A DNA stretch of 64,000 nucleotides from Parvularcula sp. BBD 1991-13 (GTDB taxonomy: Bacteria > Pseudomonadota > Alphaproteobacteria > Caulobacterales > Parvularculaceae), in NCBI GenBank assembly GCA_001657385.1, contig LYSZ01000005.1, forward strand, positions 186,001-250,000. Direction: 5' to 3'. A model generated the notes under the pieces. It was not told the DNA's origin, did not search any database, and saw nothing but the letters and a program-made list of their open reading frames with translations. The translations under genes and the position numbers were made by a program. Of this stretch, positions 9,316 through 27,539 are shown piece after piece; position 1 is the first letter of the stretch; each line of letters starts with the position of its first letter.

Positions 9316-10152
9316 CTAGATCGAATAGGTCTCGTAGTTGAAGCCCTGATCCATGCTTTCGGAGGGCGTCGCTTCCTTGCAGGCCCCGACGGGTTTCGCT
9401 GGAACCCCCGCGACCGTGCAGTGGGCGGGCACGTCCGCCAGCACTACGCTGCCGGCGGCGACCTTGGCGTTTTCGCCGACTTCGATGTTGCCAAGCACCT
9501 TGGCGCCGACGCTCACCAGGGCGCCCCGGCGGATCTTCGGATGGCGGTCGCCGCTCTCCTTGCCAGTGCCGCCGAGCGTGACGTTCTGCAGGATCGACAC
9601 GTCGTCCTCGATCACTGCCGTTTCGCCGATGACGATGCCGGTGGCGTGGTCCATGAACACGCCCTTGCCGATTTTCGTCGCCGGATGAATGTCCACGGCG
9701 AACAACTCTGAAATCCGGCTCTGCAGATAGAGGGCGAGCGCCGAGCGGTCCTGACGCCACAGCCAGTTGGAAACCCGCTGCGCCTGGAGCGCGAGATACC
9801 CTTTGAAGTACAAAAAGGGCTGCATGAAATCCTGACAGGCCGGATCGCGGGTGTACACGGCGCGAATGTCGTGCAGCGCGGCTTCGACCATGGAATCTTC
9901 TTCCGCATACGCCTCATCGCAGACTTCGCGCCATTGCATGGCGTTCATCTCCGCATCCGACATTTTCTGCGCCAGCCGGTAGGACAGCGCCACCTTGTAG
10001 CTCTCGTGGTTGAGAATGGTCGCGTGCAGGAAGCTCGCCAGCGCCGGTTCCTGCGCGGCGGCGGTGGCGGCCTCGACCCGCATGCGCGGCCAGGTCTGGT
10101 CGGTCGAAAGATCGACGACGTTGGAGGGGTCTGCGGGCTGCGAATGGCTCAT
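9316..10152 (-). CDS. cysE: Serine O-acetyltransferase
   Basis: CysE acetylates L-serine with acetyl-CoA, the entry step of cysteine synthesis. The 278-residue protein has the N-terminal helical serine-acetyltransferase domain (about residues 20-150) and then the left-handed beta-helix of hexapeptide repeats, with the active-site stretch FMDHATGIVIGETA and the hairpin TLGGTGKESGDRHPKI. The C-terminal tail ends YETYSI, and a C-terminal Ile is the residue that docks CysK in the cysteine synthase complex. It starts 17 bp after the NUDIX gene and is the last member of the queF-cyclophilin-NUDIX-cysE run. Confidence 0.96.
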   Translation of the reverse strand: MSHSQPADPSNVVDLSTDQTWPRMRVEAATAAAQEPALASFLHATILNHESYKVALSYRLAQKMSDAEMNAMQWREVCDEAYAEEDSMVEAALHDIRAVYTRDPACQDFMQPFLYFKGYLALQAQRVSNWLWRQDRSALALYLQSRISELFAVDIHPATKIGKGVFMDHATGIVIGETAVIEDDVSILQNVTLGGTGKESGDRHPKIRRGALVSVGAKVLGNIEVGENAKVAAGSVVLADVPAHCTVAGVPAKPVGACKEATPSESMDQGFNYETYSI

Positions 10153-10169
10153 GAGGCTTTATCCCTTAT

Positions 10170-10793
10170 TCAGCCGCACGCTTCAAGAATGAGCTTGCAA
10201 ATAGGCGCCGGCGCCGCTGCGCGCAAGGCCTTGATATAGGCTGTCTGCGTCATCACGATCGTGAGACTGTCGGTAATCTCTCCTGACATCACCATTTCTA
10301 ACAAAGCCTTAAAAGAAACTGTTTTCAGGCGTAACGCCTCGGACGGTTCCGGCGCCGCCTCGCCCGGCGTCAGGTCCCAGGCGAGATAGCAAATCGCGAT
10401 TTCGTCCGTAACGGAATTGGAGACGTCGAAGCGGCCGAGTTCGAGCCAGGACCGGGCGGTGAATCCGGTTTCCTCCGCCAGCTCCCGTTTGGCGGCGGCG
10501 AGCGGCTCCTCGCTGCGCGGGGCGCCGCCCTCGGGCAGCTCCCAGCTGTAACGGTCGAGGGGAAAGCGATGCTGTCCGACGAGGGGCACGGTTCCGTCCG
10601 CGGCGACGGGGAGAACGCCGACGGCGACGTTCTTGAACCGCACGACCCCGTACTCGCCCGGCGATCCGTCGGGATGGATGACGCGGTGGTCGGTAAGATT
10701 GATCCACGGATTATCGAACGCGGCGCGCTCGGACGTGACCCGCCATGGGCCGACCTTCCTGATGAATTTGCCGCCGGCGCCGTCGGACGTCAT
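10170..10793 (-). CDS. NUDIX hydrolase
   Basis: A 207-residue pyrophosphohydrolase of the NUDIX superfamily. The full box GX5EX7REUXEEXGU is visible as the segment beginning GGAPRSEEP and ending RELAEETGF. The layout (an N-terminal segment DNPWINLTDHRVIHPDG, then box, then DEIAICYLAWDLTPGEA) resembles ADP-ribose/nucleoside-diphosphate-sugar pyrophosphatases; the exact substrate is not evident. The start at 10793 overlaps the stop of the cyclophilin gene as ATGA, which indicates coupled translation and fixes the start. Longer frames reading further upstream run through the cyclophilin gene and are not used. Confidence 0.9.
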   Translation of the reverse strand: MTSDGAGGKFIRKVGPWRVTSERAAFDNPWINLTDHRVIHPDGSPGEYGVVRFKNVAVGVLPVAADGTVPLVGQHRFPLDRYSWELPEGGAPRSEEPLAAAKRELAEETGFTARSWLELGRFDVSNSVTDEIAICYLAWDLTPGEAAPEPSEALRLKTVSFKALLEMVMSGEITDSLTIVMTQTAYIKALRAAAPAPICKLILEACG

Positions 10794-11749
10794 CGTTGGG
10801 TTTCCGGCGTCGCCCTTGCCGGCCGCACGGGGACCGGGATCTGGCATATGTCGATATAGTCGGGACGGTGAACGAAGAACGCCTCCGCGCGGTTGCGTCT
10901 CGCCTCTATGTAGTCGGCGAAGGTCTGCGTTCCCGACGCCAGCACCTCCAGCGGTTTGCGCTCCGCTTGCGGAAGGTCTGAGGCGATGCGCATCGAGACG
11001 ATGGTCTCGCCGAGGTCTCCCTCCGGGCCGCTCGCGGGTTCGACCCGGCGCAGCGCCTGAAGATGTTCCATGCCGTCGATGACGCGCCCCGCCACCGTCA
11101 GGTTCCGGTCGAGATACCGCTGCGGCTGGAGCGTGACGTAAAACTCCGTGCTTGCTGTATCGGCCGCGGTTTCCCTGCCGAACGCGAAAGCGCCGGCGCA
11201 GTGAAGCAGCCATGCGCGCTTTCCGTCGGCGTCCGATCCGACCGGCATGCTGTCGACAAAGCCGATCCGCGCCGCATACCCGTCGGCGTCCCGCAGCGGG
11301 GAGAAGCCCATGGCGTCGAGAAGGGGCCGGTCGAATTCCGGCGGCAGGGTCTCGGCGGCCGCGCCCCTGTCGCGGTTTTCGATGAGGTCGCCCGCTTGCG
11401 CGACGAACCCGTCGATCACGCGGTAAAAACTGAGGCCCTCATAATATCCCTGGCGGGCGAGCGTCCTGATCTGCGCCTTATGAGCCGGGGCGAAATGGGC
11501 GGAAAGCTCGACGATCACCCGTCCGCGGTCGAGATCGATGTAAAGGAGACTTTCCGGATCGGGCGCGCGCCAGTCGGACGCTGCCGAGGCGGCGAGGATC
11601 TCGGCCGAACTGCGTTGGCCCTCCAGCGGCGCGGCGCCCGCCGGCGCCAGCCGCATGCCGGGCGCCAGGCCGTCGCCGAGCGCAAGCAGGGCCGCTCCGG
11701 CGATGACGACGACGCGGCCGGGGCGCGGATCATTCGGCTGGACGGGCAT
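10790..11749 (-). CDS. Cyclophilin-type peptidyl-prolyl cis-trans isomerase
   Basis: A 319-residue cyclophilin with the signature around FYRVIDGFVAQAGD (Phe-Arg of the active site) in a domain that starts near YIDLDRGRVIVELSAHFAP. An N-terminal hydrophobic stretch (residues 12-30) suggests export to the periplasm. The C-terminal half after the catalytic core is extended relative to minimal cyclophilins of about 160 residues, and contains the family core GVAQ-like blocks FAFGRETAADTASTEFYVTLQP. AAAGGA lies six bases before the ATG. It follows queF by 15 bp. Cyclophilins beside queuosine genes are common in Alphaproteobacteria; a mechanistic link is not known. Confidence 0.92.
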   Translation of the reverse strand: MPVQPNDPRPGRVVVIAGAALLALGDGLAPGMRLAPAGAAPLEGQRSSAEILAASAASDWRAPDPESLLYIDLDRGRVIVELSAHFAPAHKAQIRTLARQGYYEGLSFYRVIDGFVAQAGDLIENRDRGAAAETLPPEFDRPLLDAMGFSPLRDADGYAARIGFVDSMPVGSDADGKRAWLLHCAGAFAFGRETAADTASTEFYVTLQPQRYLDRNLTVAGRVIDGMEHLQALRRVEPASGPEGDLGETIVSMRIASDLPQAERKPLEVLASGTQTFADYIEARRNRAEAFFVHRPDYIDICQIPVPVRPARATPETQR

Positions 11750-11764
11750 GCGCGTTCCTTTCGC

Positions 11765-12283
11765 CTAGCCGCGGCCGCGATAGGCCGGCACGTTCTGGTC
11801 CGGCAGCCACAGTCCTTCGGGGGGCGCGCCGGTCTGATAGAAAACGTCGATCGGAATGCCGCCGCGCGGATACCAATAGCCGCCGATGCGCAGCCATTGC
11901 GGCGCCGCCGCCTCGACCAGACGCCTGGCGATCGCAATGGTGCAGTCTTCGTGGAAGGCGCCATGGTTTCGGAACGAGGATAGAAACAGCTTGAAGGATT
12001 TCGACTCGACGATCCGCGCCGCCGGGACGTAATCGATGACGAGATGAGCGAAATCCGGCTGGCCGGTCACCGGGCACAGGGACGTGAACTCCGGCGCGGT
12101 GAACCGCGCGAGATAGAGCGCGCCGGCATGAGGATTGGGCGCCGTTTCCAGCACCGCCGCCTCGGGCGAGGCGGGAATGGACGTCGCCGCCCCAAGCTGG
12201 CGCAGCGTGTCGGCGCCCTCTTGCCGGTCGTCGGCGCGAGGGCTCTGCGGGGAAGGGGCTTGGGTGTCTGCTGGCGCCGTCAT
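11765..12283 (-). CDS. queF: NADPH-dependent 7-cyano-7-deazaguanine (preQ0) reductase
   Basis: QueF reduces preQ0 to preQ1, the base that Tgt inserts into tRNA. The 172-residue, single-domain (YkvM-like) form is seen. The nucleophile is Cys70 in [13 protein letters not shown], with Asp77 as the general acid, and the QueF motif is [21 protein letters not shown]. The first 40 residues are a Pro/Asp-rich tail not needed for the fold. The start at 12283 is the first ATG of the frame outside the Arg/Lys-rich upstream shadow. With tgt and queA 5 kb away, the window carries three of the queuosine steps in two separate units. Confidence 0.95.
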
Positions 12284-12513
12284 AAGGGGGCTCTTGCTTG
12301 GCCGGGCTTGGTGCTGGGCGGTTGATGGAGGAATGCGGCGATGACCGGGCTTTGGCGTTTCGCCGCTCGCGGTCCTTTTACGCCGAGCGGCGCGCCCTTG
12401 TAAAACGCGATGGAAAAAGCCGCCTGAGAATGCGTTTTCCGCCATGGACAAGGGGCGTTCTTCTGGCCTATAAGCCGCTTTCCCGCTTGCGCGCGTTCTC
12501 GCTCGCCGGCGCC

Positions 12514-12589
<76 letters not shown>

Positions 12590-12899: not shown

Positions 12900-14119
12900 A
12901 TGGAAATGAAACTAACGACCAAGGCCTGCGACGCCGCCATCACGACCAACAAACTCAGGAAACTGAGCGATGGAGGCGGCCTGCAACTGTGGGTGACGCC
13001 CCCGAACAAAGACGGACGATGCGGCAAGTCATGGCGGTACGCTTACCGCTTTGACGGTAAACAGAAATGCATAACCATCGGACCCTATCCGCTGTTCTCG
13101 CTGAAGGAAGCGCGCGAAGCGATGGCGGTCGCCAAGAAACAGGTGATCCAGGGCATCGATCCTTCAGCGTTGAAAAAAGAACGCAAGCGCCAGCAACGGA
13201 TCGAGGAAGCGACGTTCAAATACATCGCCGAAGAGTATCTCGAAAAGCTCCGCCGCGAAGGCCGCGCTGAGGCGACGCTAAAGAAAAACGAATGGATGCT
13301 GGGTCTCGCTTATCCCGATCTCGGCGACCGTGAAATCGCCGGCATCAAGCCCGCTGAAATCCTGACCTGCCTCCGCCGCGTGGAAGCGAAAGGCAATTAC
13401 GAAACGGCGCGCAGACTGCGCTCCACGATCGGTTCCGTCTGCCGCTATGCGATTGCAACCGCGCGCCTCGATGCCGATCCGACATATGCGCTTCAGGGCG
13501 CGCTCATCACGCCGTAAGTAACGCCCCGTGCGGCGATCACGGATCCTGAAAAACTCGGCAATTTGCTGCGCGTCGTCGAGGATTATACCGGCCACATTAC
13601 GACGCGTACGGCCATCATTCTGATGGCGCATCTCTTCCCGCGCCCCGGCGAATTGCGGCAATCCGAATGGGCCGATATTGATTTCGAAAACCGCGTCTGG
13701 ACGATCCCGGCCGAGCGCACAAAAATGCGACGACCGCATAAAGTTCCCTTGTCTCAGCCGGTCCTGAAAATCCTCCGCGATCTCCACGTTGTGACGGGTT
13801 TCGGCCGCTACCTCTTCACAGCGTCCGCTCAACCAAACGGCCCCTCTCCGAGCCCGCGATGAACGCTGCGTTGCGTACGATGGGCTTCACCAAAGACGAA
13901 GTTACTGCTCACGGCTTCCGCGCAACCGCGTCAACGCTTCTGAACGAATCCGGTAAATGGAACCCCGACGCCATCGAACGCCAGCTCGCCCACGTCGAAG
14001 GCAACGACGTCCGCCGCGCCTACGCCCGTGGCGAACACTGGGACGAACGCGTCCGCATGATGGAATGGTGGTCGGAGTATCTGGAGGAGTTGAAGGCGCA
14101 GACCGGTTTCAGATCATAA
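12900..14119 (+). pseudogene. P4-type tyrosine integrase, disrupted by a stop codon and a frameshift
   Basis: The first 205 residues (from ATG 12900, preceded by GAGGAG) carry the DUF4102 arm-DNA-binding domain and the SAM-like core-binding domain. The frame then meets TAA at 13515, continues in the same frame into the catalytic domain (FPRPGELRQSEW, with the first catalytic Arg), and loses one base near 13820 so that the rest is read in another frame from about 13822. That last part has HGFRATASTLLNE and the tyrosine motif VRRAYAR and ends at 14119. Read through, the product would be about 405 residues, normal for the family. All catalytic residues survive but are split, so the element is probably immobile on its own. 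Confidence 0.9.
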
Positions 14120-16183
14120 AAATGCGTCAAGAAATTCTGAAACGGGCCGTACTCCTGTTACGCACAGGTGTTCTCGCGCGCGTGTGCACGCGACATACAA
14201 GAGATGCCGTTCCGTCGCGTAGACTTCATCGAGTTCTGCATCATCGGTTACGTCTTCTATCCGCGCTTGCAGCGGCAACGCTTCATCGTCGCAAGCCATA
14301 ACGGCGACCGCGCGGTATTCTAGCCCCTTCGCAAGGTGCATTGTCCCGAGTGCGATACGTTCGGACAAATGCTCTTCGGCGCCGCTCAAGGTTTCTCCTT
14401 CTTGGCCAAGGGTCGCTAGCATTGCGCGCGCACGTGGCAAGTAGCTTCTATCTCGAACAAAAACGCCAATTTCGTTGGGGGGAATACCCTTATCAAGAAG
14501 ATCTTCTATCCATACAGCTACAGTCGTTTGCTCTTCTTCCGCTGTTTTAAGTTTATACACTTCCGGAGCGGGGCCATTAAACAGTGAAATTGTGCCTACG
14601 CGGCGGTCTTCGTTCCCGTCCATATCCCGGATAATGCGCGGCAAGAGACTGTCAGCGGCTTCTCGGATTTGATGGCTCGTTCGGTAATTTACGGTCAGGG
14701 TTGACGAACGGCCACGGACATCGACCCCGAGTGATTTCCAGGAAAAGGGATGCTGAAAAATCCGCTGACCTAGATCTCCGGTGAAGAATAGCCCGTCTGT
14801 TCCACTTCCGGATAAGGCGGCGAGAAACCGCAGCTCGCCCGGCCCTAAGTCCTGTGCTTCATCTACGACGATATGCGTGTACGGTTTTTCATGTCGATCG
14901 GCGAAATAGTCGCCCATTTCGCTGAACAGAGCAGATGCGGTTAACATCCCTTTTCGTGTGAGCGCATCACGCGTTCGTTCAAATACCGGCCACAGCGCTT
15001 CTCGTTGCTTACGGCCAACACGGCTGCGTTTGCCTTTCCTCGTGACATCAACGTAGTCGTCCAGTGTGTTAATTTGCCAATTGTCGACAACATCACGCCA
15101 TTCGGCCCAGACAAAGCGCTCCGTAAATCCATCAAGGACCGCCGCTTCGCGCTGAAGAATTACGCGCACGTCTCTCTCTTTCGCGATATACGGTTCGCGG
15201 CCATGCGCAAGTGTATAGAGTTCAGAGGCGGCGTCTTCAAAAGACGCTATATTAATCGACGGTACGATACGCTTCTCACCACCGGTCAGGATGGTCAGTT
15301 TTCGGCGCAGAGATGATGCAAGGGGACGTGAGAAAGTCGTTAGCAACACTTTGGCGCCGGGAAGGTCGGACAATCGTTTTGCGCGGTGCAGAGCGACAAC
15401 CGTTTTGCCGGTGCCGGCCGAGCCGCCAACACGAGCAGGTCCGTTGAACTCCTTGTCAACGAGAACCTGCTGGCTCGGATGTAGAAAAACTGTCCATTGA
15501 TCCCAGGGGTAATCAAGTGCTGCTTCGAGCGCTTCACGCCCTTCAACAACCCTGAAGCGCCGCTGCGCGTCAGGGTGAAGCGCAGAGTCCGAAATCGCTT
15601 GCTCGAACACTTGCGGGATTGGCGTCTCACCGACCGCGAGTGCAAGCACGGCTTCTTGCGCCTCCTGCGGAAGGTGCGTGACGAGATCAAGCAATTCATC
15701 TGTGTCTGCTTGACGTAGCCGGTCCAACCACTGCGTCGGCACGCCATAGATCAAAAGCTCGTCATCGCTGCAAGCCGCTAAAGGCCTAGATATCGGCGCA
15801 GATACAGGCGCTGGTTCGGTTGGTGCTGACGGCGCTGGCTTGCGCGTCTCAACAGTCTCTTCAATTTCAACGATTTGCAAAGCTTGCGTGTGCGGATGGA
15901 CTTCAAAAATGCGCCGCGTCGCCCATGCGTATGCATCGTCGTGGTGGTCAACATAGCAAAGCACCACCCGCTCGCCCGTTTTGTGGACAATCAAGCGTAT
16001 GTCGCGGTTCGCGCGCACGGACCAAAAATTTTTGTCCTTCGCGCCGTCAATGCGATGAAATGACTTGCCCTTGCCCGTTGGGTCCATCTGCAAGTCAAAC
16101 GCCGCCATTTTCGCAGCCTTCTGCGACTGATTGTCGAGCTTGGCGAGCGCGGATTGGAATGTATCGGCGATAAGGAATTTCAT
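14114..16183 (-). CDS. RelE-like domain fused to UvrD/REP-type helicase
   Basis: A 689-residue fusion. Residues 1-91 resemble RelE/ParE toxins (segment FWSVRANRDIRLIVH, then VVLCYVDHHDDAYAWA). A Pro-rich linker (about 115-135) leads to a superfamily 1 helicase with Walker A GGSAGTGKT (253-261), Walker B DEAQD (441-445), motif VNYRTSHQIREAA and a C-terminal motif TMHLAKGLEYRAV with YVACTRAREHL. The helicase lacks an obvious RecB-type nuclease. It starts one base after the stop of the GIY-YIG gene (TAG-t-ATG), so it is the last gene of the restriction operon, and it overlaps the integrase relic end by six bases. The RelE-like part could cut mRNA, or could only be a fold that binds ribosome or DNA; this is undetermined. 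Confidence 0.88.
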   Translation of the reverse strand: MKFLIADTFQSALAKLDNQSQKAAKMAAFDLQMDPTGKGKSFHRIDGAKDKNFWSVRANRDIRLIVHKTGERVVLCYVDHHDDAYAWATRRIFEVHPHTQALQIVEIEETVETRKPAPSAPTEPAPVSAPISRPLAACSDDELLIYGVPTQWLDRLRQADTDELLDLVTHLPQEAQEAVLALAVGETPIPQVFEQAISDSALHPDAQRRFRVVEGREALEAALDYPWDQWTVFLHPSQQVLVDKEFNGPARVGGSAGTGKTVVALHRAKRLSDLPGAKVLLTTFSRPLASSLRRKLTILTGGEKRIVPSINIASFEDAASELYTLAHGREPYIAKERDVRVILQREAAVLDGFTERFVWAEWRDVVDNWQINTLDDYVDVTRKGKRSRVGRKQREALWPVFERTRDALTRKGMLTASALFSEMGDYFADRHEKPYTHIVVDEAQDLGPGELRFLAALSGSGTDGLFFTGDLGQRIFQHPFSWKSLGVDVRGRSSTLTVNYRTSHQIREAADSLLPRIIRDMDGNEDRRVGTISLFNGPAPEVYKLKTAEEEQTTVAVWIEDLLDKGIPPNEIGVFVRDRSYLPRARAMLATLGQEGETLSGAEEHLSERIALGTMHLAKGLEYRAVAVMACDDEALPLQARIEDVTDDAELDEVYATERHLLYVACTRAREHLCVTGVRPVSEFLDAFL

Positions 16184-16184
16184 A

Positions 16185-16718
16185 CTAGCGTTGGTTTTCG
16201 ACTTGAATTTTGTATAATTCTTCTATCATTTCACGCTGCTTTAGGCCTAAATTGTCATCATCGCGATATTGCAAATATTGTTGCACCTTCGCACCAAAGC
16301 GGCCGCCTTGGCGATTCTGTGGCGGTTCGGTGACCGCTAGTAAGATTGCTTCGATATGATTCAGCACTTCCGAGCGCGTGCTATGAGCACCGGTTTTTTC
16401 TTTTTGAAGTTTCCCCGACTTTAATACAGACCGCACCCCAAACCACGAAAATCTTTCCCATCGGTCCGCTAATGAATCGTCGCGATGCTGCCCCAGTCGT
16501 CCAATAAGTGTTTGATTTTTTCCGGCTCCTACTTGCCCCGCGTACACGATGCGAAACAGGTCATCATACAGAACATACACTCCTTGCTGTTCTTTAAAAT
16601 CAATTGGTTCTGAACGCTTTTTGCCGACAATTTTGCCTTTAAGATGCCCGGCAATTGGGCCACGCCCCCAAAAGACATTCTCTCGCCGCCAAAAAAGTCC
16701 GTAATTCTTAAAGAGCAT
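16185..16718 (-). CDS. GIY-YIG-type nuclease domain protein
   Basis: A 177-residue protein with a GIY-YIG-like core: GVYVLY (46-51), VYAGQ (58-62), then LIGRLGQHR containing Arg74 and His78, as in homing and repair nucleases of this fold that cut DNA at a metal site. An acidic C-terminal residue expected for metal binding is plausibly the Glu in NHIEAIL. The start at 16718 has AGGAGAGG two bases upstream; reading further upstream would run into the Mod gene. It sits 8 bp after mod and 1 bp before the helicase, so it is cotranslated with both. It is probably a DNA-cleaving or end-processing partner of the restriction system; the target is unknown. Confidence 0.8.
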   Translation of the reverse strand: MLFKNYGLFWRRENVFWGRGPIAGHLKGKIVGKKRSEPIDFKEQQGVYVLYDDLFRIVYAGQVGAGKNQTLIGRLGQHRDDSLADRWERFSWFGVRSVLKSGKLQKEKTGAHSTRSEVLNHIEAILLAVTEPPQNRQGGRFGAKVQQYLQYRDDDNLGLKQREMIEELYKIQVENQR

Positions 16719-16726
16719 TTCCTCTC

Positions 16727-19690
16727 CTAGACCGAAAAAACTTTCATCACTTCGTCGCCATAGTGGTTGATCACCTTCACCGCGATACGGCCTGACGACG
16801 GGCGCGGGAATGGGCGCGACGCAGCTCGGTAAAGCGTTCGCCACGCGTCTTCATCTATTTCGGCGCGGAGCGAGGTTTTGAGAGACTTGTACGGATCGCC
16901 AGCGCCGAGGAAATAGGCGTGGCGAACGAAGAAGCTTTCCTCGTCATAATCGGTGTCGATAAACCAGGCCATTATGTCATCGGTGTCGCCATGGCGGATT
17001 TCACCGGTGGCGGGCACAAAAACATCCATGCCGCGAATCGTGACCGTCAGGTCTTCGCCTTGTTCCGTGATCGTCACGTCCGGCTCGCCGATCACCATGA
17101 AGAGGTTCGCGTTCTTATCGCGTCGCAAATCCTCCGCCATGTGAAGGTCGGGATTCATCTTCGCCTTGACGATCCGCAACGGCCCAAGCTTCGTCACCTC
17201 GCTGGCGTGGGCGTCATAACCGAAAGCGAGCGCAATCAGGATATCGAAGCGCGCCTCGGTCGCCTCGCGCGCGGCGGCCATGAGGTCGGTGCGATGGAGC
17301 GTGCCGTATTCCGGACCGATCATGATGGCGGCGCGTCGCTCGATTGCCTTGGCGCCTTCACCTTCGACAAAGTGACCCTCAGCGCAAACCATATCGCCCG
17401 CCCAAGGCGTGATATGGTTGAAGGTGATGCGGTCTTCCTTCGCGCCCTGCTGCACGCCGGCGATGCGCAAGTTTTCGAGGATCACCTGAACGAAATCGAC
17501 CTCGTTGGAGAGGCCGCTTTTGCGCTTCTTCTTTTTCTGTTTTTTCGCTTTTTGGGGCTCATCGAGCAGCTCCTCGTCATCCATGGCGACGACGCGATGG
17601 GGCGATAAGCTTTCAACCGTGAACGGCCCGGCGACGCGTACACGGGCGTTGTCGACATAGGGACGGTCATAGAGATATTCGACGTCCGCCGCGCGGGCGA
17701 TGGAGGCGTCTATCTTCTGCTGACGCTCAATGCGGTTCTCCCACCATTTCGCGTGGGCGTCTTTGGCTTTCTTCGACCAGGTGTCATCAGCTTCGCGCGG
17801 GATTTCCCATTCTTCCCATGTTTCGCCGACGGCGTTGTTCAGCGCGGCGCGCAAAGGCTCCAGCTTCTCTTGGTATTGCTCCCAGATGACGTCGATCTCG
17901 GCGTTGTTGGCGATGGATTTCAGCGTGATGTGCGGCGCGCGCTCATAGACGAACCCTTCTCGTATGTCGTCGCGGGGCCGTCCGTTTACCTCATCGTTTT
18001 GGGGCGGTTTGCCGGTGACTTCCGCTTCTTTCATTCGTCCGTCAGCGGAGTCTTTAAGGTAGTAATAGGGATAACGTGCGCTCATCAGCCGCTGGCGGGC
18101 GAGCGCCAGCGCCACGCGGGAAGTGTCGATCGTGATCCAACGCCGTCCCCATTGTTCAGCGACCGTCGCTGTTGTGCCGGACCCGCAGGTGGGGTCGAGA
18201 ACAAGATCGCCGGGGTCTGTAGCCATGAGGAGACAGCGCTCAATCGTCTTACTACCTGTTTGAACTACATAAACCTTTTCATCAGTAAAATTTCCTGTTC
18301 CAGTGTCCGTCCAAATATTCGAGAATGGCATAACATCGAAGTCGGTGTGAAAGCGTTTGTAGCGAAAACTGCTTTCCGCGACGTGCACACGATCAGCATA
18401 AATTAGACGTTGGGTTCCAACCGGATGTGACGGTTTCCAATGCGAATTGGCTTTGTAAGGATCGACCTTCACGCTTCGATACGACAAGAGCTGCGGCTCG
18501 GAGGCGCGGCCTTGGGAAATCATATTGTCCGGATTGTATGGTGATGCTCCATCAGGAATGAGTACTTCACCGCGTTTCTCCGCAGCGCTAACCCCTCGAC
18601 AACTAAAGTCTTCCAACTGCAGCCAAGTCGCATTACCGGTACCAAGCTCATAGGGTTTTTTCGCAAAGACCGGCCTTGTCTTAACGGCCGTTCGATCCTT
18701 GGCGTACCAGACGATGTAATCTAGTACATTCGAAACAACGGCAGATGAAAACCCGTAAGTTTTTTGAACGGAAATTTCGCTGAGGAAATTCTCCTCCCCA
18801 AACACCTCATCCATCACGGCGCGAACGCGATGCACATTTTCATCGCCGATCTGTACAAAGATCGATCCGGACTCCGTCAGTAGATCGCGCATCACCGTCA
18901 GCCGGTCACGCAGATAGGTGAGGTAGGAGTGGATGCCGTCTTTCCAGGTGTCGCGAAACGCCTTCACCTGTTCCGGCTCGCGGGTCAGGCTTTCGAGCTT
19001 GCCGTCCTTCACATCGCGCGAACGAGTTGAGACCTGCCAGTTGGAATTGAACTTGATGCCATAGGGCGGGTCGAAATAGATCGCCTGTACCTTGCCGCGT
19101 AACTTCTCGCGCTCTGCCAGAGACGCCATCACTTGTAGTGAATCGCCGAGGATCATCCGGTTCGACCAGTGCTGTTCGTGCTCGTAGAACTCCGTCTTCG
19201 CCTCCGGGTCGAGACCGTTGAACTCCGCAAAGAGGTCCGGTGCGTGGTCGCCGTTCTTTTCTTTCGACATTTTGACGAGATAGTCGATCAGCGCCTTGGG
19301 GTGGATCTTTTCCTGCACATAAATGGGCGGCACATTGACGACGAGGTCCGTCCAGTCCTGCCGGTCCTTGCCGCGCCAGACGAGCTGTGCGTCGCCTAAT
19401 TCTATTTGACCTGTCTCGGTGAGCTGTTCGCGCTGCTCCTTCGTCAGCGTGATCTTGATCCCGTTCCAGATGATCTGCGGATCAAGGTCTTCATCGCGTT
19501 CGCGAACCTCTCCCTTCGGCAAGGGGCGTGCGCGCTTATACTTCGTCGGCGGCCGAGGCGTAATCTCTTCGAGCCGCTCGTTGATCGACTGTAATTCCGC
19601 TGTCGGAATATTCCGCCGGCGCGCCTCTTCATGCGTCAGCGTTTCGACCTGCTTTTTCTTCTTTGTTCTCTTTGTCGCTTTTCTGGCCAT
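16727..19690 (-). CDS. Type III-like DNA adenine methyltransferase (Mod), long form
   Basis: The modification subunit, which would methylate adenine in the recognition sequence to protect host DNA. The catalytic motif DPPY is at 207-210, and the SAM-binding motif DPTCGSGTT follows at 499-507, the beta-class order of type III Mod enzymes. The N-terminus is Lys/Arg-rich (KATKRTKKKKQ). At 987 residues it is much longer than classical Mod proteins (about 650): roughly 470 residues follow the SAM site, with a basic stretch near 685-700 (KAKKQKKKKRK). Start spacing to res is 12 bp, with a purine-rich GAAAAGAGA site. The whole belongs to the long Mod/BPTD_3080-type Res pairs. Recognition sequence is not readable. 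Confidence 0.93.
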   Translation of the reverse strand: MARKATKRTKKKKQVETLTHEEARRRNIPTAELQSINERLEEITPRPPTKYKRARPLPKGEVRERDEDLDPQIIWNGIKITLTKEQREQLTETGQIELGDAQLVWRGKDRQDWTDLVVNVPPIYVQEKIHPKALIDYLVKMSKEKNGDHAPDLFAEFNGLDPEAKTEFYEHEQHWSNRMILGDSLQVMASLAEREKLRGKVQAIYFDPPYGIKFNSNWQVSTRSRDVKDGKLESLTREPEQVKAFRDTWKDGIHSYLTYLRDRLTVMRDLLTESGSIFVQIGDENVHRVRAVMDEVFGEENFLSEISVQKTYGFSSAVVSNVLDYIVWYAKDRTAVKTRPVFAKKPYELGTGNATWLQLEDFSCRGVSAAEKRGEVLIPDGASPYNPDNMISQGRASEPQLLSYRSVKVDPYKANSHWKPSHPVGTQRLIYADRVHVAESSFRYKRFHTDFDVMPFSNIWTDTGTGNFTDEKVYVVQTGSKTIERCLLMATDPGDLVLDPTCGSGTTATVAEQWGRRWITIDTSRVALALARQRLMSARYPYYYLKDSADGRMKEAEVTGKPPQNDEVNGRPRDDIREGFVYERAPHITLKSIANNAEIDVIWEQYQEKLEPLRAALNNAVGETWEEWEIPREADDTWSKKAKDAHAKWWENRIERQQKIDASIARAADVEYLYDRPYVDNARVRVAGPFTVESLSPHRVVAMDDEELLDEPQKAKKQKKKKRKSGLSNEVDFVQVILENLRIAGVQQGAKEDRITFNHITPWAGDMVCAEGHFVEGEGAKAIERRAAIMIGPEYGTLHRTDLMAAAREATEARFDILIALAFGYDAHASEVTKLGPLRIVKAKMNPDLHMAEDLRRDKNANLFMVIGEPDVTITEQGEDLTVTIRGMDVFVPATGEIRHGDTDDIMAWFIDTDYDEESFFVRHAYFLGAGDPYKSLKTSLRAEIDEDAWRTLYRAASRPFPRPSSGRIAVKVINHYGDEVMKVFSV

Positions 19691-19702
19691 ATCTCTTTTC
19701 GA

Positions 19703-22700
19703 TTATTCCGCCGCTTTGGCGCTATCCATCACAAATTTATCGATCAGTTCCTTGAAGGCGTTTTCCATGCCGAAGACTTCGATGAACTCCGCAAACGCCC
19801 ATCGCCCGAAACGGCCAAGATTGTTGACGCCCGGAACCCAAAGCTCCTTCATCGTCTGCGCCTTCATTTTCGCGTCGTCGTTGCGATAGCCCTTGACCTC
19901 CAGCACCAGATTAAGCGGGTCCGCCTCTCCATGTCCGTCATTAAGGCGTACAATGAAGTCCGGCACGTAACGCCGCGTGACCGGACCATTGCGATAGGGA
20001 ACCTCAAAGCCAAGCCCCTGATTCTTTACATAGGCGAGAACGCGCGGGTGTTCCTCGCAAACGCGCGCCATCTCCGCCTCCCAGTTCGAATCTTCGACCA
20101 CATGTGAGACGTGACATTTCTTGGGATCGGTCACGAAACAGGGCTTTGACGTCGTGAAGTTGACAAAGCGCGTATCGCCCTCCGGGTTAAAGGAGTCGAT
20201 GACCGCTGTAACACGGGAGGCGCCATCGTCGAAGCGTTGGCACGCGAGGAAAATGCGCTCGGCGGCTTTTTCGATGACGCCCGGCCACGCCGCCATGGCT
20301 GGAAAGGTTCCTTCCGACTCGCAGACCAGATAGCCCTCGTCCAGCCAGCGCATGACAATGCGTTTGACTTGCGGGAACAGCGCCATGTTCATGCCGCCTT
20401 CGTCCTGAAACTTTGTCATTAGAAGGTGTTTGGTGATGACATAAGCGATGGAGTTTGGGCGCGCATATTCATCGAGCCGATCTTCGGGCGACATGATTTC
20501 CTGTTCGCCGACAACGCCCGACATGTGGGTTCTGGTCGCGCCGACAAGTTCGGGTGTGATTCGCAACCGCGAATCCTCATTGAACTGTGCCGTGATCGTC
20601 TCATCGGGAAGCGCCGTGCGGTAGCCGGCGACGCGCGGAAAGCGGATGGCGAGATGTGCCCGGTCGCGCTTGGCATGCACGCGTGTGACAGGCTTCGGCG
20701 CAGACGGCGGCGCGACGGTCGGCTTCGCGGTGAAATCAAACGGAATGCCCATGATGTCGGCATATTCGACATCAAAATGTCCGTCGCTATTCAACTCATA
20801 GCTCTTTCTACGAAGGGCGCGACCGACCACCTGCTCGCATAAAAGCTGGGTGCCGAAGGCTCGCACGCCGATGATATGCGTGACGGTGTTGGCGTCCCAC
20901 CCTTCCGTCAGCATAGAGACCGACACCACACATCGGATCGATTCGCCGAGACGCCCCTTCTCCCCTACAGTGTTCATCACTTCGCGCAGCAAGTCTTCGT
21001 CCGTAATTTTTACATCGCCGCCCGCGCCTTCGCGCTGTGCTTTCTCGCGCCGGAACTGCTCAATCTCCGGCGCCATGGCATTATGGAATATTTTGTCGAG
21101 TCCTTCGCCAGAGTCGATTTGGACCGAGTCGATCAAGAGAGTGTTAGGTTTTGCGAGGCGCTGTCCGTGCTCGTCAAAATTTCTGAACATTTCGAGCTGA
21201 CCGGGCATGTATGTTTCGCCGTGCTCGTCCGTTTCCGGAGTGATATAACCGGCGATCCAATCATAGATGATTTGCGACGTCGTTGTGTTATTGCAGACAA
21301 CAATGAACACCGGGGGGACATCGTGACCTCTCGCGCGCCATTCCTCATCAGTTTTGACGTAATGCGCATAAAGCGAACGCAGCGCCGTGATAAGCGGCGT
21401 GACTTCAGCGAGCGCGTCTGGATTTCCGCCGCCGCTTTTCGAGCGGCCCTTTTTCGGCATCTTCTTGCCAATATGGTCCCAAAGATTGCGATAGATTGGC
21501 TTGCCGTCCGCCATCGGCATATTATCGAGGATTGGCACTCGGGGCAGTTTCACGATGCCGCATTCGATGGCATCCATCAGTGAAAAGTCGGAGACGGTCC
21601 AGGGAAAAAGCGTGCCCTCGCGATAACCGGAACCGCGCAAAAAGAATGGCGTCGCTGAAAGGTCGTAGACGGCGCGGGCGCCCACCTTGCGTTTCACCGC
21701 CGCAATGCCGTTGATCCACAGTCTTGCGGCTTCGTTATTCTCTTTAGCCTCTTTTTTGTCGTCGCCTTTCGATTTTTGAACATCGTCGCTGCCCGGCTTT
21801 TCCCGATAACAATGATGCGCCTCGTCATTGATGACGACAATATTTTTCATGTTGAAAAGATCGCCGATGGCGCGACGCAACATCTCGCCCTCGGATTCTA
21901 CAGTAACAATCTTCTCTTCCCGCCAGCCTTCTATTGCGCCGCGCGTACCTTTCGCGACTTTGGTTTTCTCGCGCTGCTGAAACGCGTGATAGTTTGTTAC
22001 GACAACTTTTGCCGCGGCGACATCATCCATCATGTCTGATGGAACAAGCTCGCGCCTTTCGTAGTAGCTGTCAGGATCGGTCGGGTCGAGTACGCGCAAG
22101 CGATCGCGGATTGTGATGCCTGGCGCGATGATAAGAAATCCTTTGGCGTAATTCTTTGACGATGGCATCCGCACCGCGTTGACCGTTTGCCACGCGATTA
22201 GCATCGCCATGACGGTCGTCTTGCCGGCGCCTGTCGCCATTTTCATGGCCAGCCGATAGAGGTCCGGATTTGCTTCGTCGTTGCCGCCCTTAATGTGGTC
22301 GAAAATATGCTTGTAACGCTTCTGACCTCTGGCGACTTCAGTTAGCCAAATGATGGTTTCGACCGCTTCGCGCTGACAGAAAAATGGTCGAACTGAGATC
22401 CATTGTTCTTGGGGGCGTCGCCAATGTTCCAGCAAACGCATGGTGGCAGGCGTGACTCCCCAATCCTTTGGATTCGGCAAATTGCGCCAGCTGCGAATGT
22501 GCTGGCGAATCTCATTGATGATCGGCGTCGGATTATATTGCCACTCCTCATCTTCCAGGAGGTCGCGCTGAGCGTCTCCTCTTCTCGCCCGCTTTGCTTT
22601 CGGGACTGGGGTGTAAAGGTCTGATCTGCGCCGCTCGTTCGTTGGCGGTTGATTGGTTGGCTGGCCGTCCTCGAGGATGTGATGTTGTCTGGGCTCCTCG

Positions 22701-22747
22701 TAGGGTGAATTCAGAATTGGATATTTAAAGAAGTCATGCTCTGACAT
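19703..22747 (-). CDS. Type III-like restriction endonuclease subunit (BPTD_3080-type Res)
   Basis: A 1014-residue superfamily 2 translocase-nuclease. Walker A is ATGAGKTT (171-178), and motif II is DEAH (308-311) in IVVINDEAHHCY. A later helicase motif is CVVSVSMLTEGWDANTV, with QVVGRALRR as motif VI. The C-terminal PD-(D/E)xK nuclease is visible as VPDFIV (Asp near 930) and LEVKGYR (Glu950, Lys952). All expected motifs are intact, so the enzyme should be active, cutting unmodified DNA with its Mod partner. It is the promoter-proximal gene of the four-gene minus-strand operon, the reverse of the usual mod-res order. GC content is lower than in the flanking core genes. Confidence 0.93.
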   Translation of the reverse strand: MSEHDFFKYPILNSPYEEPRQHHILEDGQPTNQPPTNERRRSDLYTPVPKAKRARRGDAQRDLLEDEEWQYNPTPIINEIRQHIRSWRNLPNPKDWGVTPATMRLLEHWRRPQEQWISVRPFFCQREAVETIIWLTEVARGQKRYKHIFDHIKGGNDEANPDLYRLAMKMATGAGKTTVMAMLIAWQTVNAVRMPSSKNYAKGFLIIAPGITIRDRLRVLDPTDPDSYYERRELVPSDMMDDVAAAKVVVTNYHAFQQREKTKVAKGTRGAIEGWREEKIVTVESEGEMLRRAIGDLFNMKNIVVINDEAHHCYREKPGSDDVQKSKGDDKKEAKENNEAARLWINGIAAVKRKVGARAVYDLSATPFFLRGSGYREGTLFPWTVSDFSLMDAIECGIVKLPRVPILDNMPMADGKPIYRNLWDHIGKKMPKKGRSKSGGGNPDALAEVTPLITALRSLYAHYVKTDEEWRARGHDVPPVFIVVCNNTTTSQIIYDWIAGYITPETDEHGETYMPGQLEMFRNFDEHGQRLAKPNTLLIDSVQIDSGEGLDKIFHNAMAPEIEQFRREKAQREGAGGDVKITDEDLLREVMNTVGEKGRLGESIRCVVSVSMLTEGWDANTVTHIIGVRAFGTQLLCEQVVGRALRRKSYELNSDGHFDVEYADIMGIPFDFTAKPTVAPPSAPKPVTRVHAKRDRAHLAIRFPRVAGYRTALPDETITAQFNEDSRLRITPELVGATRTHMSGVVGEQEIMSPEDRLDEYARPNSIAYVITKHLLMTKFQDEGGMNMALFPQVKRIVMRWLDEGYLVCESEGTFPAMAAWPGVIEKAAERIFLACQRFDDGASRVTAVIDSFNPEGDTRFVNFTTSKPCFVTDPKKCHVSHVVEDSNWEAEMARVCEEHPRVLAYVKNQGLGFEVPYRNGPVTRRYVPDFIVRLNDGHGEADPLNLVLEVKGYRNDDAKMKAQTMKELWVPGVNNLGRFGRWAFAEFIEVFGMENAFKELIDKFVMDSAKAAE

Positions 22748-22894: not shown

Positions 22895-22922
22895 TATACC
22901 ACAAATTATATTTTGTGGTATA
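22895..22922. promoter_or_regulatory. Perfect 11-bp inverted repeat (operator/promoter)
   Basis: TATACCACAAA (22895-22905) and its exact complement TTTGTGGTATA (22912-22922) flank a 6-nt centre, ending 10 bp before the nucleotidyltransferase ATG. The right arm contains an extended -10-like TGTGGTATAGT, so the palindrome overlaps the probable promoter and could be bound by a repressor. Confidence 0.6.
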
Positions 22923-22932: not shown

Positions 22933-23949
22933 ATGAAGCCGATTCCGCTGATATTGCAGACCTTATATCAGGACCTTATGCAGGCGCATCTCGACCGTGC
23001 GCCCGCGGAAATGGCCGGCTCGCCGCATCTTCGGGAGACCGGCGGCAAGGCGTTCTGGTACGTCACTGTCCGGGCGCCTGGGGGCGCGCACAAGCAGCAT
23101 TTCATCGGGCCTGACGACGACAAGACCCGCGCCCGGATCGAGCGCTGGAAGGCCGCGCGCGACGACGCTCGCGCGTTTCGCGCCAACGCTTCGGAAAAGG
23201 CTGCGGCGCTTCGGGCTGCGCGTCTTCCCGCTCTCGACATGACGACCGGAAAAGTGTTGCGCGCTCTGGCGCAGGCGGGCGCGTTTCGTCTCGGTGGAGT
23301 TCTTGTCGGTACTCATGCTTACAGGCTTTACGATTTGGAACTCGGCGCGCGCTTCTCCTCAAAAACGACCGCCATCACCGCCGATGTCGATCTGGCGTCA
23401 TTTGAAAAACTGTCGCTGGCGCTCGACGACCACGCCGAGCCCGAATTGCCGGAAGTCTTGAGCGCGCTCGGCCTGTCCCCTGTCAGCTCTCTTGATCGCA
23501 ACAAACCGACGCGCTGGCGCATGACGGACAGCGATTTTGTCGTCGATTTTCTCAGCCCGTCTTTTGACGAAAAAGAGGGCGCGCAAAAGCTCGAAGCGCT
23601 CGGTGTCTGGTCGCAAGGTCTGCACTTCCTGAACTTCCTTATCCGTGATCCGATTCCCGCCGTCGCGCTCTATCGGGAGGGCGTGCTCGTACAAATTCCG
23701 AGGCCGGAGCGATTTGCAATTCACAAGCTGATTGTGGCGTCGCGTCGGCGCGGTCCGGGGCGCGCCAAAGCCGAAAAGGACCTTGAACAGGCGCGCTCGC
23801 TGGCGCTGGCGCTCGCGGATGCGCGTCCCCATGAACTCGGCGCCGCCTTCAGCGAAGCGCTGGAACATGGCGTGGCCTGGCGCAAGGCGATCGAGGCGTC
23901 GTTTAAACGCGCCCCGGATATCCGCGAGACCGTCGAGAATACCATCTGA
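22933..23949 (+). CDS. GSU2403-family nucleotidyltransferase-fold protein
   Basis: A 338-residue protein matching the NTP_transf_8 (GSU2403) family layout: an N-terminal helical segment, then the nucleotidyltransferase core with GGVLVGTHAY (121-130) and a DVD acid pair (151-153), and a later DFVVDFL strand that can supply the third acid. Such proteins are often carried on islands and are related in fold to AbiEii/MNT toxins, but no cognate antitoxin is evident beside it. It is divergent from the restriction operon, separated by 185 bp. The start has no good ribosome-binding site and lies about 10 bp from the promoter-like palindrome, so a leaderless mRNA is likely. The reaction is unknown. 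Confidence 0.8.
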   Translation: MKPIPLILQTLYQDLMQAHLDRAPAEMAGSPHLRETGGKAFWYVTVRAPGGAHKQHFIGPDDDKTRARIERWKAARDDARAFRANASEKAAALRAARLPALDMTTGKVLRALAQAGAFRLGGVLVGTHAYRLYDLELGARFSSKTTAITADVDLASFEKLSLALDDHAEPELPEVLSALGLSPVSSLDRNKPTRWRMTDSDFVVDFLSPSFDEKEGAQKLEALGVWSQGLHFLNFLIRDPIPAVALYREGVLVQIPRPERFAIHKLIVASRRRGPGRAKAEKDLEQARSLALALADARPHELGAAFSEALEHGVAWRKAIEASFKRAPDIRETVENTI

Positions 23950-23989: not shown

Positions 23990-24346
23990 TTATAATCTCG
24001 CGCGGTTGTCCGCTTGCCGCTGCACCCAGGCTTCTATTTCGCTCCAAACCCAGAGTGACGACTTGCCGATTTTTATCGGCGCGGGGAACGGATTGTCCTT
24101 TTGTTTCATCAGGCGGTATATCGTCGCCCGGCTGATGCTGAGCCGCTTGCAAATTTCGTCGACCTTGATGAGAGGCTGGTCAAGAATCGGCTTCGATTTA
24201 CGCAGCTTCACGTCCTCATTTCCGTCTACGAGGGCGCGATTCTGAAGCGCGACTTGCGCCTTGCTGTCGCCCTTCAGGTCGCGATCCAGCAACGTCAATT
24301 GCGCGCCGCCAGAAACCTCTACGCATTCATTTTCACGATGTCTCAT
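23990..24346 (-). CDS. AlpA-family phage/island transcriptional regulator
   Basis: A 118-residue protein with a C-terminal AlpA/MerR-like helix-turn-helix: IKVDEICKRLSISRATIYRLM then FPAPIKIG and the WVWSEIEAWVQR tail, the classical AlpA signature. The first 55 residues are a variable extension. AlpA proteins activate integrase or excision genes on P4-like islands, which fits the P4-type integrase relic. AAGGAG is four bases before the ATG. The GTATAC repeat cluster lies about 210 bp upstream of the start and is a candidate control region. Confidence 0.88.
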   Translation of the reverse strand: MRHRENECVEVSGGAQLTLLDRDLKGDSKAQVALQNRALVDGNEDVKLRKSKPILDQPLIKVDEICKRLSISRATIYRLMKQKDNPFPAPIKIGKSSLWVWSEIEAWVQRQADNRARL

Positions 24347-24711
24347 CTTTCTCCTTCTCCATTTAAACGCTTGTTCATCGGCGCCAACAGAACGGCAGTC
24401 CTGCCGTTTCTTGGCGAAGTATTCACGCCTTCGACAGTATTGCGCTCTCTTCGAGCTGAGATTTCAAGCACTAAATTATTCCAGTAGCTTTGCTGACCTC
24501 ATGCGGCGGGGCCCGAATTTATCTACCGAAAAATCGCTCATGACCTGTAGACAATGTATACATAGTAAATTCAACCGCTTAGGGATTGTCTGTATACACT
24601 GTATACGCCGCAGAGGTCGCGTATACAGCGTATACGGCTGAGACCCACCCAATAACACCTTGTTAAACAACATCTTTTCTTTGCGTGTGGGGACCACGTC
24701 AGGTGTGTTAC
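24347..24711. other. Gene-free stretch with GTATAC cluster
   Basis: No gene is supported on either strand. The notable content is the GTATAC repeat cluster at 24556-24635, annotated separately, and a generally AT-rich promoter-like sequence upstream of the AlpA gene. Confidence 0.55.
24556..24635. repeat. Five GTATAC palindromes, two pairs at 9-bp spacing
   Basis: GTATAC begins at 24556, 24592, 24601, 24621 and 24630. Copies two-three and four-five are each nine bases apart (GTATACactGTATAC and GTATACagcGTATAC); the first lies within a longer palindrome, ATGTATACAT. This density of a 6-bp palindrome is not expected by chance and suggests cooperative protein binding, such as an operator or a partition/replication site. 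Confidence 0.7.
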
Positions 24712-25095
24712 TCAATCTTTTCGCGCGCGGCCCCGCCGCGGCGCGTTCGATGCGACAGTGTGAGACGATTGACGGGGCGTTTCCGCATCGCTTTTTGACA
24801 CTTCGTCGATATCCGCTTCGATGCCGAGGTCGTTCATGTCTTCCTCGATGCTCGCGATATGGCGGAGATTGGTCGTTGAAATCACCACGGCGAATGCTCC
24901 AAACAGCACGCCGAACAGCCAGGGCGTCGGCGCCTGAAACGCCGATACCGCGAAGAAACAAAAGACAGCGCTGGCGCCGCCGGCGACAAGCAAGACGCGA
25001 TGAATTTGACGGCCGGTTTTGAGTGCGCGACGCGTCATCCGCGCGCCGAGCATCGCGAGCTTTTCGGACTCGCTGGGGGTTCCATTGTCGAGCAT
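24712..25095 (-). CDS. Small two-helix membrane protein of unknown function
   Basis: A 127-residue protein with two adjacent hydrophobic segments, about residues 33-54 and 58-74 (RVLLVAGGASAVFCFF and LFGVLFGAFAVVIST), so probably a helical hairpin in the inner membrane. The C-terminal 45 residues are acidic then Arg-rich and would be cytoplasmic if both ends are inside. AAAGGA precedes the ATG, and the gene follows the 115-residue gene by 12 bp. I do not recognise a family. Its position on the island, downstream of two other unknown genes, suggests a co-expressed cassette. Confidence 0.62.
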   Translation of the reverse strand: MLDNGTPSESEKLAMLGARMTRRALKTGRQIHRVLLVAGGASAVFCFFAVSAFQAPTPWLFGVLFGAFAVVISTTNLRHIASIEEDMNDLGIEADIDEVSKSDAETPRQSSHTVASNAPRRGRARKD

Positions 25096-25107
25096 GACGC
25101 AGTCCTT

Positions 25108-25455
25108 TCACGCAGCGATAAGCCACTTGTCGGCGAAGTTGCGGATCGTGCGATAGGCAATCTCCGGGCTTCGGCCGTGCGCCATAAGATCGAAGCGCAG
25201 CTTCTGAATGGCGTCGGGCAGCGACGAGATTTCGCGGTCGCATATGCGGCGGAAAATCTCGTTGATCGCTTCGTCGAGACGGGCCGATTGATCGTCAAGC
25301 GCGCGCTTCGCCGCCGGCGTCAGCGCATCGTAATACGCAGCGTGAACGCCGCATCCGTCGACGGTATGCATCGCGCCCAGGAGGCCGACATAGATCTCGA
25401 TCAGGTCGGCGAGCGTGGGCTGCGGTTCGTAGTTCGGTCTGGAGGGTGCGGTCAT
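25108..25455 (-). CDS. Island protein of unknown function, helical
   Basis: A 115-residue, soluble, mostly helical protein with no recognised motif. It contains the segments LADLIEIYVGLLGAMH and LDEAINEIFRRICDREISSLPDAIQKL, and no transmembrane stretch. Its ATG overlaps the stop of a 28-codon upstream frame by four bases (ATGA), and it precedes the small membrane protein by 12 bp, so three short frames form one transcription unit. This structure supports real translation. Confidence 0.6.
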   Translation of the reverse strand: MTAPSRPNYEPQPTLADLIEIYVGLLGAMHTVDGCGVHAAYYDALTPAAKRALDDQSARLDEAINEIFRRICDREISSLPDAIQKLRFDLMAHGRSPEIAYRTIRNFADKWLIAA

Positions 25456-25538
25456 GACGCCCTCCCTCGCCCGGCGGGGCGATCAGCGGCGCAAATGGTG
25501 CGTTGGGAATAACTCGTGATAAAGCTGCGGGTAGCCAT
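25452..25538 (-). CDS. 28-residue small ORF upstream of the unknown island gene
   Basis: A 28-residue frame beginning MATRSFITSY and ending RAS. AAGGAG lies eight bases before its ATG, a stronger site than most genes here have, and its stop overlaps the next ATG as ATGA. It is either a small protein or a translational leader that couples expression of the next gene. It is unrecognised. Confidence 0.45.
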   Translation of the reverse strand: MATRSFITSYSQRTICAADRPAGRGRAS

Positions 25539-25621
25539 AATCCTGACTCCTTGTTAGTCGGGGTTGTGGTCAGGCGCGGAAGGGTGTTGCTGCACCCTTT
25601 CGCGCTGCTTGCGACTCATGT

Positions 25622-25640
25622 GTCATACACTTTGTCTGAC
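25622..25640. promoter_or_regulatory. Operator-like palindrome 1 before the XRE gene
   Basis: GTCATACACTTTGTCTGAC is a 19-bp imperfect inverted repeat (7 of 8 arm bases pair). A second copy of the pattern GTCANACA-TTGTNTGAC is centred 49 bp downstream. Autoregulation by the XRE protein is inferred. Confidence 0.6.
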
Positions 25641-25670
25641 GCGCCTACTTAGCCTGATCAAAGCCAATAC

Positions 25671-25689
25671 GTCAAACAATTTGTATGAC
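25671..25689. promoter_or_regulatory. Operator-like palindrome 2, overlapping the XRE start codon
   Basis: GTCAAACAATTTGTATGAC has the same half-sites as the upstream palindrome and contains the ATG at 25685. Binding here would block transcription or initiation, as expected of a self-repressing XRE regulator. Confidence 0.6.
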
Positions 25690-27399: not shown

Positions 27400-27539
27400 G
27401 TTGAGCGGCGCTCCCCCAGAGAGAACGGGTGAGGGCGGGCTCACTTTTCCAGCGGCAACGGGTCTTGCGGCAATGAGGGGCGCGATGGTCGCGGGCGCAG
27501 CCAAAGGCGAGGTATTAAAACGTACAACGATCATTTATT

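Follow-up and report, generated by a model that had tools for sequence, protein, structure and literature searches.

Type III restriction-modification, for which the features of the EcoP1I/EcoP15I kind serve as our comparison, is customarily regarded as complete with two genes. The operon described here lies in a window of 64,000 nt (the whole stretch of DNA that was analysed: contig LYSZ01000005.1 of assembly GCA_001657385.1, positions 186,001-250,000 of the forward strand) of Parvularcula sp. BBD 1991-13, and joins a restriction gene (Res) and a modification gene (Mod) of type III-like character to a gene for a helicase with a RelE-like N-terminal domain (RelE-UvrD) and a gene for a putative GIY-YIG nuclease. 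In a 2025 preprint on ARMADA type II (Bell et al., PMC12458937), ArmD, a homologue of RelE-UvrD by sequence comparison, is the product of the last gene and is essential, and cells protected by ARMADA neither stop growing nor lose viability. Res, a long Mod and RelE-UvrD form a conserved three-gene core across many phyla. The four genes are the following (window positions):

19703..22747, minus strand: Res, 1014 amino acids (aa), superfamily 2 (SF2) helicase with a C-terminal PD-(D/E)xK nuclease; core gene 1

16727..19690, minus strand: Mod, 987 aa, beta-class methyltransferase (DPPY before the S-adenosylmethionine (SAM) motif); core gene 2

16185..16718, minus strand: putative GIY-YIG-type nuclease, 177 aa from its ATG, in the slot between Mod and RelE-UvrD; optional cargo

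14114..16183, minus strand: RelE-UvrD, 689 aa, YoeB/RelE-fold N-terminus (approximately residues 1-100) followed by a superfamily 1 (SF1) UvrD helicase; core gene 3

The gaps between them, in the order Res, Mod, GIY-YIG, RelE-UvrD, are 12, 8 and 1 bp; the open reading frame (ORF) positions and a reading of the sequence bear out the preliminary description in this respect, and the spacing fits a putative coupled translation. A longer, GTG-started frame of the GIY-YIG gene, overlapping Mod, is also present.

The conservation of the trio was followed from both of its ends. A search with RelE-UvrD as bait gave 291 confirmed genome loci; the best 80 were kept, and these belong, by record title, to Pseudomonadota, Acidobacteriota, Chloroflexota, Verrucomicrobiota, Kiritimatiellota, Nitrospinota and others. 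Enough DNA, meaning at least 9 kb upstream of RelE-UvrD, is present in 55 of the 80; a same-strand Mod lies upstream in 53 of these 55 and Res, whole or in part, in 50. Mod is missing at that threshold from L057, which has a 28-residue Mod stub and a Res fragment, and from L072, which has neither gene. Res is missing from L040 and L044 (the DNA starts inside Mod), L065 (a Res stub at the first bases), L011 (the Mod C-terminus only) and L072; because the available DNA begins too late in L040, L044 and L065, a whole Res is not observable there. Among the 25 loci with shorter upstream DNA, 15 contain a piece of Mod, and the other 10 have just 92 to 2055 bp upstream, one of these (L052) still showing the last 30 residues of Mod. 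Separately, viral-collection contigs with RelE-UvrD (L167-L176, of which L170 and L172 are near copies) have Mod in 10/10 and Res in 8/10, and the trio is therefore carried on contigs classed as viral or proviral.

From the Res side, a class sample of 289 genomes contains Res over the family cut-off in 17 genomes and RelE-UvrD (E 1e-20) also in 17. Three of the Res genomes (G015, G261, G130) belong to a distant clade of 31-33% identity. RelE-UvrD is on the same contig in 11 of the 14 genomes with a close Res, the window's genome included (10/13 without it), for which the hypergeometric p is 1.7e-13 if genomes are independent, an optimistic figure because G162 and G260 share one genus. The three close-Res genomes without RelE-UvrD are G056, G272 and G262, and the contig of the last ends within Mod. 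In a phylum sample of 349 genomes, Res is found at E 1e-200 in 26, among them the window's genome and G159 of the class sample; two (G519, G395) are of the distant clade, and six loci end too soon to judge (G302, G453, G390, G427, G457, G556). RelE-UvrD lies downstream in 14 of the 17 testable close-Res loci besides the window, and in the three without it (G397, G378, G343) Mod is interrupted or missing. The RelE-UvrD match of G444 is split over two frames and its Res has an internal stop.

Res belongs to the BPTD_3080 family (NCBIfam NF046055, 1242.8 bits, cut-off 800) and carries the motifs GAGKT (173), DEAH (308) and PDF...EVK (from 929). Its match to Pfam ResIII (39.1 bits) is above the cut-off, that to RE_endonuc (21.0 bits) is under the cut-off of 23.4, and the PADLOC restriction-enzyme models barely detect it (best 30.7 bits). 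A Res-first order, initially taken as a reversal of the customary one, is the usual order among close relatives. The distant BPTD_3080 relatives L148, L149, L150, L216 and L218 have Mod upstream of Res and no RelE-UvrD.

Mod matches the PADLOC model PDLC03632 (MTase_III; 1140 bits) over residues 5-986 and also N6_N4_Mtase of Pfam, and its DPPY (207) stands ahead of LDPTCGSG (498); Res and Mod thus both carry the motifs expected of them, as the preliminary description had stated, and adenine is the presumed target of Mod. In a conservation profile of 75 sequences (the value being the share of the commonest residue), the longest variable block covers residues 301-475 (0.32-0.50) and is flanked by blocks of 0.88-0.95 (176-300) and 0.81-0.97 (476-550); variation is also seen in the first 100 residues and in 701-725. 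The block 301-475 is the likely target-recognition domain, judged by their place between the DPPY and SAM motifs. The last 187 residues (801-987) are conserved at 0.71-0.93, and the fact that the putative specificity part varies while the C-terminal end stays constant would fit a partner-binding role of the latter. The C-terminal extension of about 470 residues, regarded earlier as unusual, is family-wide: the coverage by PDLC03632 and the conservation of 801-987 rule out an oddity of this genome.

RelE-UvrD has the helicase motifs GSAGTGKT (254) and VDEAQD (440) and matches UvrD models, GajB (PADLOC, 90.9 bits) and, weakly, a HigB-like toxin model. Its N-terminal domain is structurally matched by YoeB and YafQ and has, by these matches, a RelE fold, in which R63 and H81 are invariant (48 rows); the helicase half is conserved as well. 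Comparison with the protein from the ARMADA-like operon of Escherichia coli (L130) reveals full-length homology, with 36, 35 and 35% identity in three segments; G259 and D441 align with L130 positions 265 and 454, and the Walker A lysine 260 falls on 266. RelE-UvrD is accordingly placed, on its sequence, as a homologue of ARMADA ArmD with approximately 35% identity.

The stretches between Res and Mod and between Mod and RelE-UvrD vary in length and content. Gap sizes were counted in 110 loci; loci of viral and plasmid origin are among them, as are several near-duplicates (L001 and L147 are apparently the same contig). The Mod/RelE-UvrD gap (92 loci) is <100 bp in 19, 100-400 bp in 4, 400-2500 bp in 53 and >2500 bp in 16; the Res-Mod gap (75 loci) is <200 bp in 27, 200-400 bp in 3 and at least 400 bp in 45. 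Among the 80 genome loci the Mod/RelE-UvrD slot is delimited in 68, and 52 of these contain an ORF of at least 110 aa on the operon's strand; for the Res/Mod slot the numbers are 51 delimited and 25 filled. When ORFs from 100 aa upward are counted over the 110 loci, those running with and against the operon number 128 and 14, and 45 and 11, in the two slots, versus 53 and 32 just downstream; slot ORFs were called by length alone, and some of them are spurious. Between the end of the last cargo gene and RelE-UvrD the median distance is 4 nt (n=52), and RelE-UvrD keeps its position even where unrelated cargo precedes it.

The cargo set comprises 134 plus-strand slot ORFs of at least 110 aa from 54 of the 80 loci, L057 and L072 being left out. 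At E 1e-5 it matches 63 overlapping Pfam families, of which the best 25 include AAA_21 and AAA_15 (8 members each), GmrSD_N (6, mostly in the Res/Mod slot), schlafen AlbA_2 (5), ORF6N (4), DUF4276, Fic and PIN (3 each), and KAP, subtilase, TIR_2 and QueC (2 each); at E 1e-20 it matches 103 PADLOC families, with HEC-01A, AriA, QatA and SoFic among the best 25. Individual loci hold IetA (251 bits) and IetS (107 bits; L017), HEC-01A (406 bits) and HEC-01B (245 bits; L038), QatA (492 bits; L060), a weak PLD-like match (L056), an SNF2-like gene (L140) and an Mrr-like gene (L002). L040 and L060 share a row of genes starting with a KAP/QatA gene, which, read by what we take to be the Qat gene order, would represent a Qat system; the family tallies (KAP 2, QueC 2, TatD 1) fit. 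Among hand-picked cargo ORFs, 14 of 38 are without a Pfam match at E 0.001; ten of the 14 were compared with NCBIfam, where 9 are likewise unmatched. Judged by these matches, the slots are occupied by mutually unrelated genes of defence type, some of them complete pairs, and offer a route to finding new defence genes. The cargo of L040 (205-9969), approximately 9.9 kb between the last Mod codons and RelE-UvrD, contains a gene of AbiJ type and, probably, genes of Qat type. What the sequence comparisons establish is the gene content, the motifs, the co-occurrence, the variability of the slots and the homology to ArmD.

We propose, as the probable explanation, a methylation-guided anti-phage core of type III-like Res and Mod with an ArmD-type RelE-UvrD, whose slot is occupied here by a putative GIY-YIG nuclease; we infer all biochemical steps, and any physical complex, from the protein families. 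Mod would methylate adenine within a target chosen by its variable middle domain, marking self DNA. Res, guided by Mod, would translocate on unmethylated incoming DNA and cut it. RelE-UvrD would load on the opened or cut DNA and, acting as an SF1 helicase, unwind it; the YoeB-like domain would cleave the mRNA made from the unwound DNA. A single recognition event could in this way block genome and transcripts without cell death, as reported for ARMADA (PMC12458937). The GIY-YIG nuclease would be an additional effector, acting on DNA by nicking or cutting, perhaps where the core helicases expose it, and would be replaceable by other defence modules.

Several observations weigh against this proposal. 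G056 (L134) has Res and Mod in one piece each and no RelE-UvrD in the next 7 kb to the contig end, and G272 (L136) has Mod in two pieces and no RelE-UvrD in 3.7 kb beyond; the third gene is therefore not strictly required. The distant Res clade (G015, G261, G130, G519, G395) is without RelE-UvrD in 5/5. Conversely, 6 of the 17 RelE-UvrD genomes of the class sample lack Res over the cut-off. The matches of three of these (G025, G070, G288) lie near contig starts, G288 showing the end of Mod; G190 has Mod from residue 116 on and no Res in the stretch examined; in G176 and G183 the identity is just 33%. RelE-UvrD of L072 stands without Mod or Res, and in G162 and G260 the order is Mod-Res, with RelE-UvrD convergent and outside the operon. 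The AlphaFold2 (AF2) model of the GIY-YIG protein matches the GIY-YIG domain of UvrC weakly (E 0.14). In the passages of PMC12458937 consulted, the ArmD Walker B mutant is only partly defective and no RNase assay of the RelE domain is described.

As an alternative, the operon may be a plain type III restriction-modification pair within a defence island, with RelE-UvrD and the GIY-YIG gene independent and merely co-localised. Unrelated systems do cluster in such islands, Res and Mod occur without RelE-UvrD in G056, G272 and the distant clade, and RelE-UvrD homologues serve other operons. The near-constant linkage in mostly fixed order across phyla (53/55; 14/17), the position that RelE-UvrD keeps behind unrelated cargo, and a tree in which the window and the RelE-UvrD-bait rows form one group apart from the ARMADA-like operon rows (95/97) make this explanation unlikely.

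RelE-UvrD may instead be a guard toxin, silenced by the restriction complex and freed when a phage inhibits or degrades that complex, with abortive infection as the outcome. Guarded toxins beside restriction systems are established, e.g. PrrC with EcoPrrI, and the YoeB/YafQ/RelE fold with its invariant R63 and H81 would suit one. The conservation of the helicase half, needless for a pure toxin, and the protection by ARMADA, where ArmD is essential and cells neither cease growth nor lose viability (PMC12458937), render a guard role improbable.

The preferred reading, a three-gene core with exchangeable cargo, leaves the GIY-YIG gene outside the core. Its product has no Pfam, NCBIfam or PADLOC match at E 0.1; the assignment as a putative GIY-YIG nuclease is based on the spacing of its motif (GVY...YAG, 46-61), on the conservation of GVY...YxG, R74, H78, E131 and N135 (51 rows) in a family of 448 homologues, and on the weak structural match. 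By tblastn and profile, the family is found in 0/68 delimited Mod/RelE-UvrD slots of the RelE-UvrD-bait loci; the sole relative, in L008, is located upstream of Mod, which rules out a fixed four-gene system. Other relatives are located away from the trio, and in a DISARM-type DrmA-DrmB locus (L177, 3816-9655) the next gene, 8 bp on, encodes a GIY-YIG protein 56% identical to that of the window. Because of the absence from the 68 slots and the relatives in other contexts, we regard the gene as optional cargo. The order Mod-GIY-YIG-RelE-UvrD recurs in the window, L146, L162, L163 and L189, and these loci, which share the position and the close spacing and are 44-51% identical to the window, indicate that the four-gene form is old; that the nuclease is an integral fourth subunit, as first proposed, is nevertheless highly improbable given the 0/68 slots, the relatives in L177 and elsewhere, and a GC content of 0.464 versus 0.549 for the operon. 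The composite system of the preliminary description thus stands for RelE-UvrD, which accompanies Res and Mod (53/55 and 50/55; 14/17; 11/14), and fails for the GIY-YIG gene. A short cargo ORF upstream of RelE-UvrD in L013 (5-400) reads '...IIYIGRG...' by eye and may represent a further GIY-YIG gene, unrelated to that of the window; it is not matched by the family profile of the window's protein.

Taken jointly, these observations allow a broader view, for which we judge the chances to be even: the ArmD-type RelE-UvrD would be a portable effector placed on at least two unrelated self/non-self readers (PglX/YprA in ARMADA, Mod/Res in type III), and the type III version would be an open platform whose fixed docking slots (Res|Mod and Mod|RelE-UvrD) swap whole modules (IetAS, Qat, HEC-01, GmrSD, GIY-YIG and others) within a single transcription unit, possibly under a common methylation-based trigger. 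A whole type III clade has a near-constant third gene, the homologue of which is essential in ARMADA according to the 2025 preprint (PMC12458937). Since this third gene is near-constant, its homologue is essential there and Res is barely detected by PADLOC, it can be asked directly whether RelE-UvrD has one function behind two different readers of methylation.

The operon is situated beside two further features:

12514..12589, plus strand: tRNA-Phe (ARAGORN)

12901..14120, plus strand: tyrosine-integrase remnant, interrupted by stops in each of the three frames read, with Phage_int_M and Arm-DNA-bind_3 (Pfam) on its open part

The integrase remnant extends to the RelE-UvrD stop. GC content is 0.549 across the operon versus 0.653 in the background (window 1-12500 plus 30001-64000), which upholds the earlier claim of a GC-poor island by a tRNA, and tRNA-Phe is the probable integration site. 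No copy of the tRNA-Phe 3' end that could be an attachment site occurs elsewhere in the window (at most 3 mismatches, or 1 mismatch), and no right end of the island was located. In a genome of the same genus (G633) the left flank is matched piecewise up to the tRNA, parts of 34000-50000 are matched again, and 24000-34000 has no match. Divergent from Res is a PF12281 nucleotidyltransferase gene (22933-23949, plus strand, 209.7 bits), which, the window's own genome excepted, is without relatives at E 1e-8 among the loci retrieved; between the two starts lies a 14-nt inverted repeat (22895-22922, arms touching, 93% complementary) that looks like an operator. An AlpA-like excisionase/regulator gene (23990-24346, minus strand) is consistent with a mobile island.

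Among the matches listed, no description of Res-Mod-RelE-UvrD was recognised in the open-licence literature, one elsewhere being possible, and the name 'BPTD_3080' has no match in it; the three-gene core with swap-in cargo is apparently undescribed. Comparison with known systems gives partial likenesses. Gabija shares the resemblance of RelE-UvrD to GajB; RelE-UvrD differs by its N-terminal RelE domain, and no GajA is among the matches listed for the four genes (the best 25 PADLOC families each for Mod and RelE-UvrD), so membership is ruled out and homology of one gene is kept. DISARM is likewise a methylation-linked multi-gene defence, and the GIY-YIG relative in L177 connects the two, whereas the four genes have no DrmA or DrmB among the PADLOC matches listed; a GIY-YIG-containing DISARM was not recognised in the literature among the matches listed (best 12 of 17). 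With type III restriction-modification the operon shares a beta-class Mod with a variable block between its motifs and a Res made of an SF2 helicase and a PD-(D/E)xK end, and it differs in the Res-Mod order, the C-terminal part of Mod (approximately 450 residues), the third gene RelE-UvrD and the cargo slots. ARMADA type II similarly has methyltransferase and large helicase genes followed by RelE-UvrD (ArmD) as the last gene; its ArmB is PglX-like and the operon's methylase is a type III Mod, and the operon has Res in place of the ARMADA helicases, as well as variable cargo slots. A tblastn search of the 64 kb window with two helicases from ARMADA-like operons (L130, L131) found no YprA-like ArmC (best E 0.18), and for an ArmB-type gene, of which a fixed-length stretch of one gene was compared, the best E was 0.96. 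Because ArmC is absent from the window, membership in ARMADA is ruled out and the homology of one gene is retained: by its predicted proteins, the operon is not ARMADA; it is a type III restriction variant whose third gene is of ArmD type and which has cargo slots.

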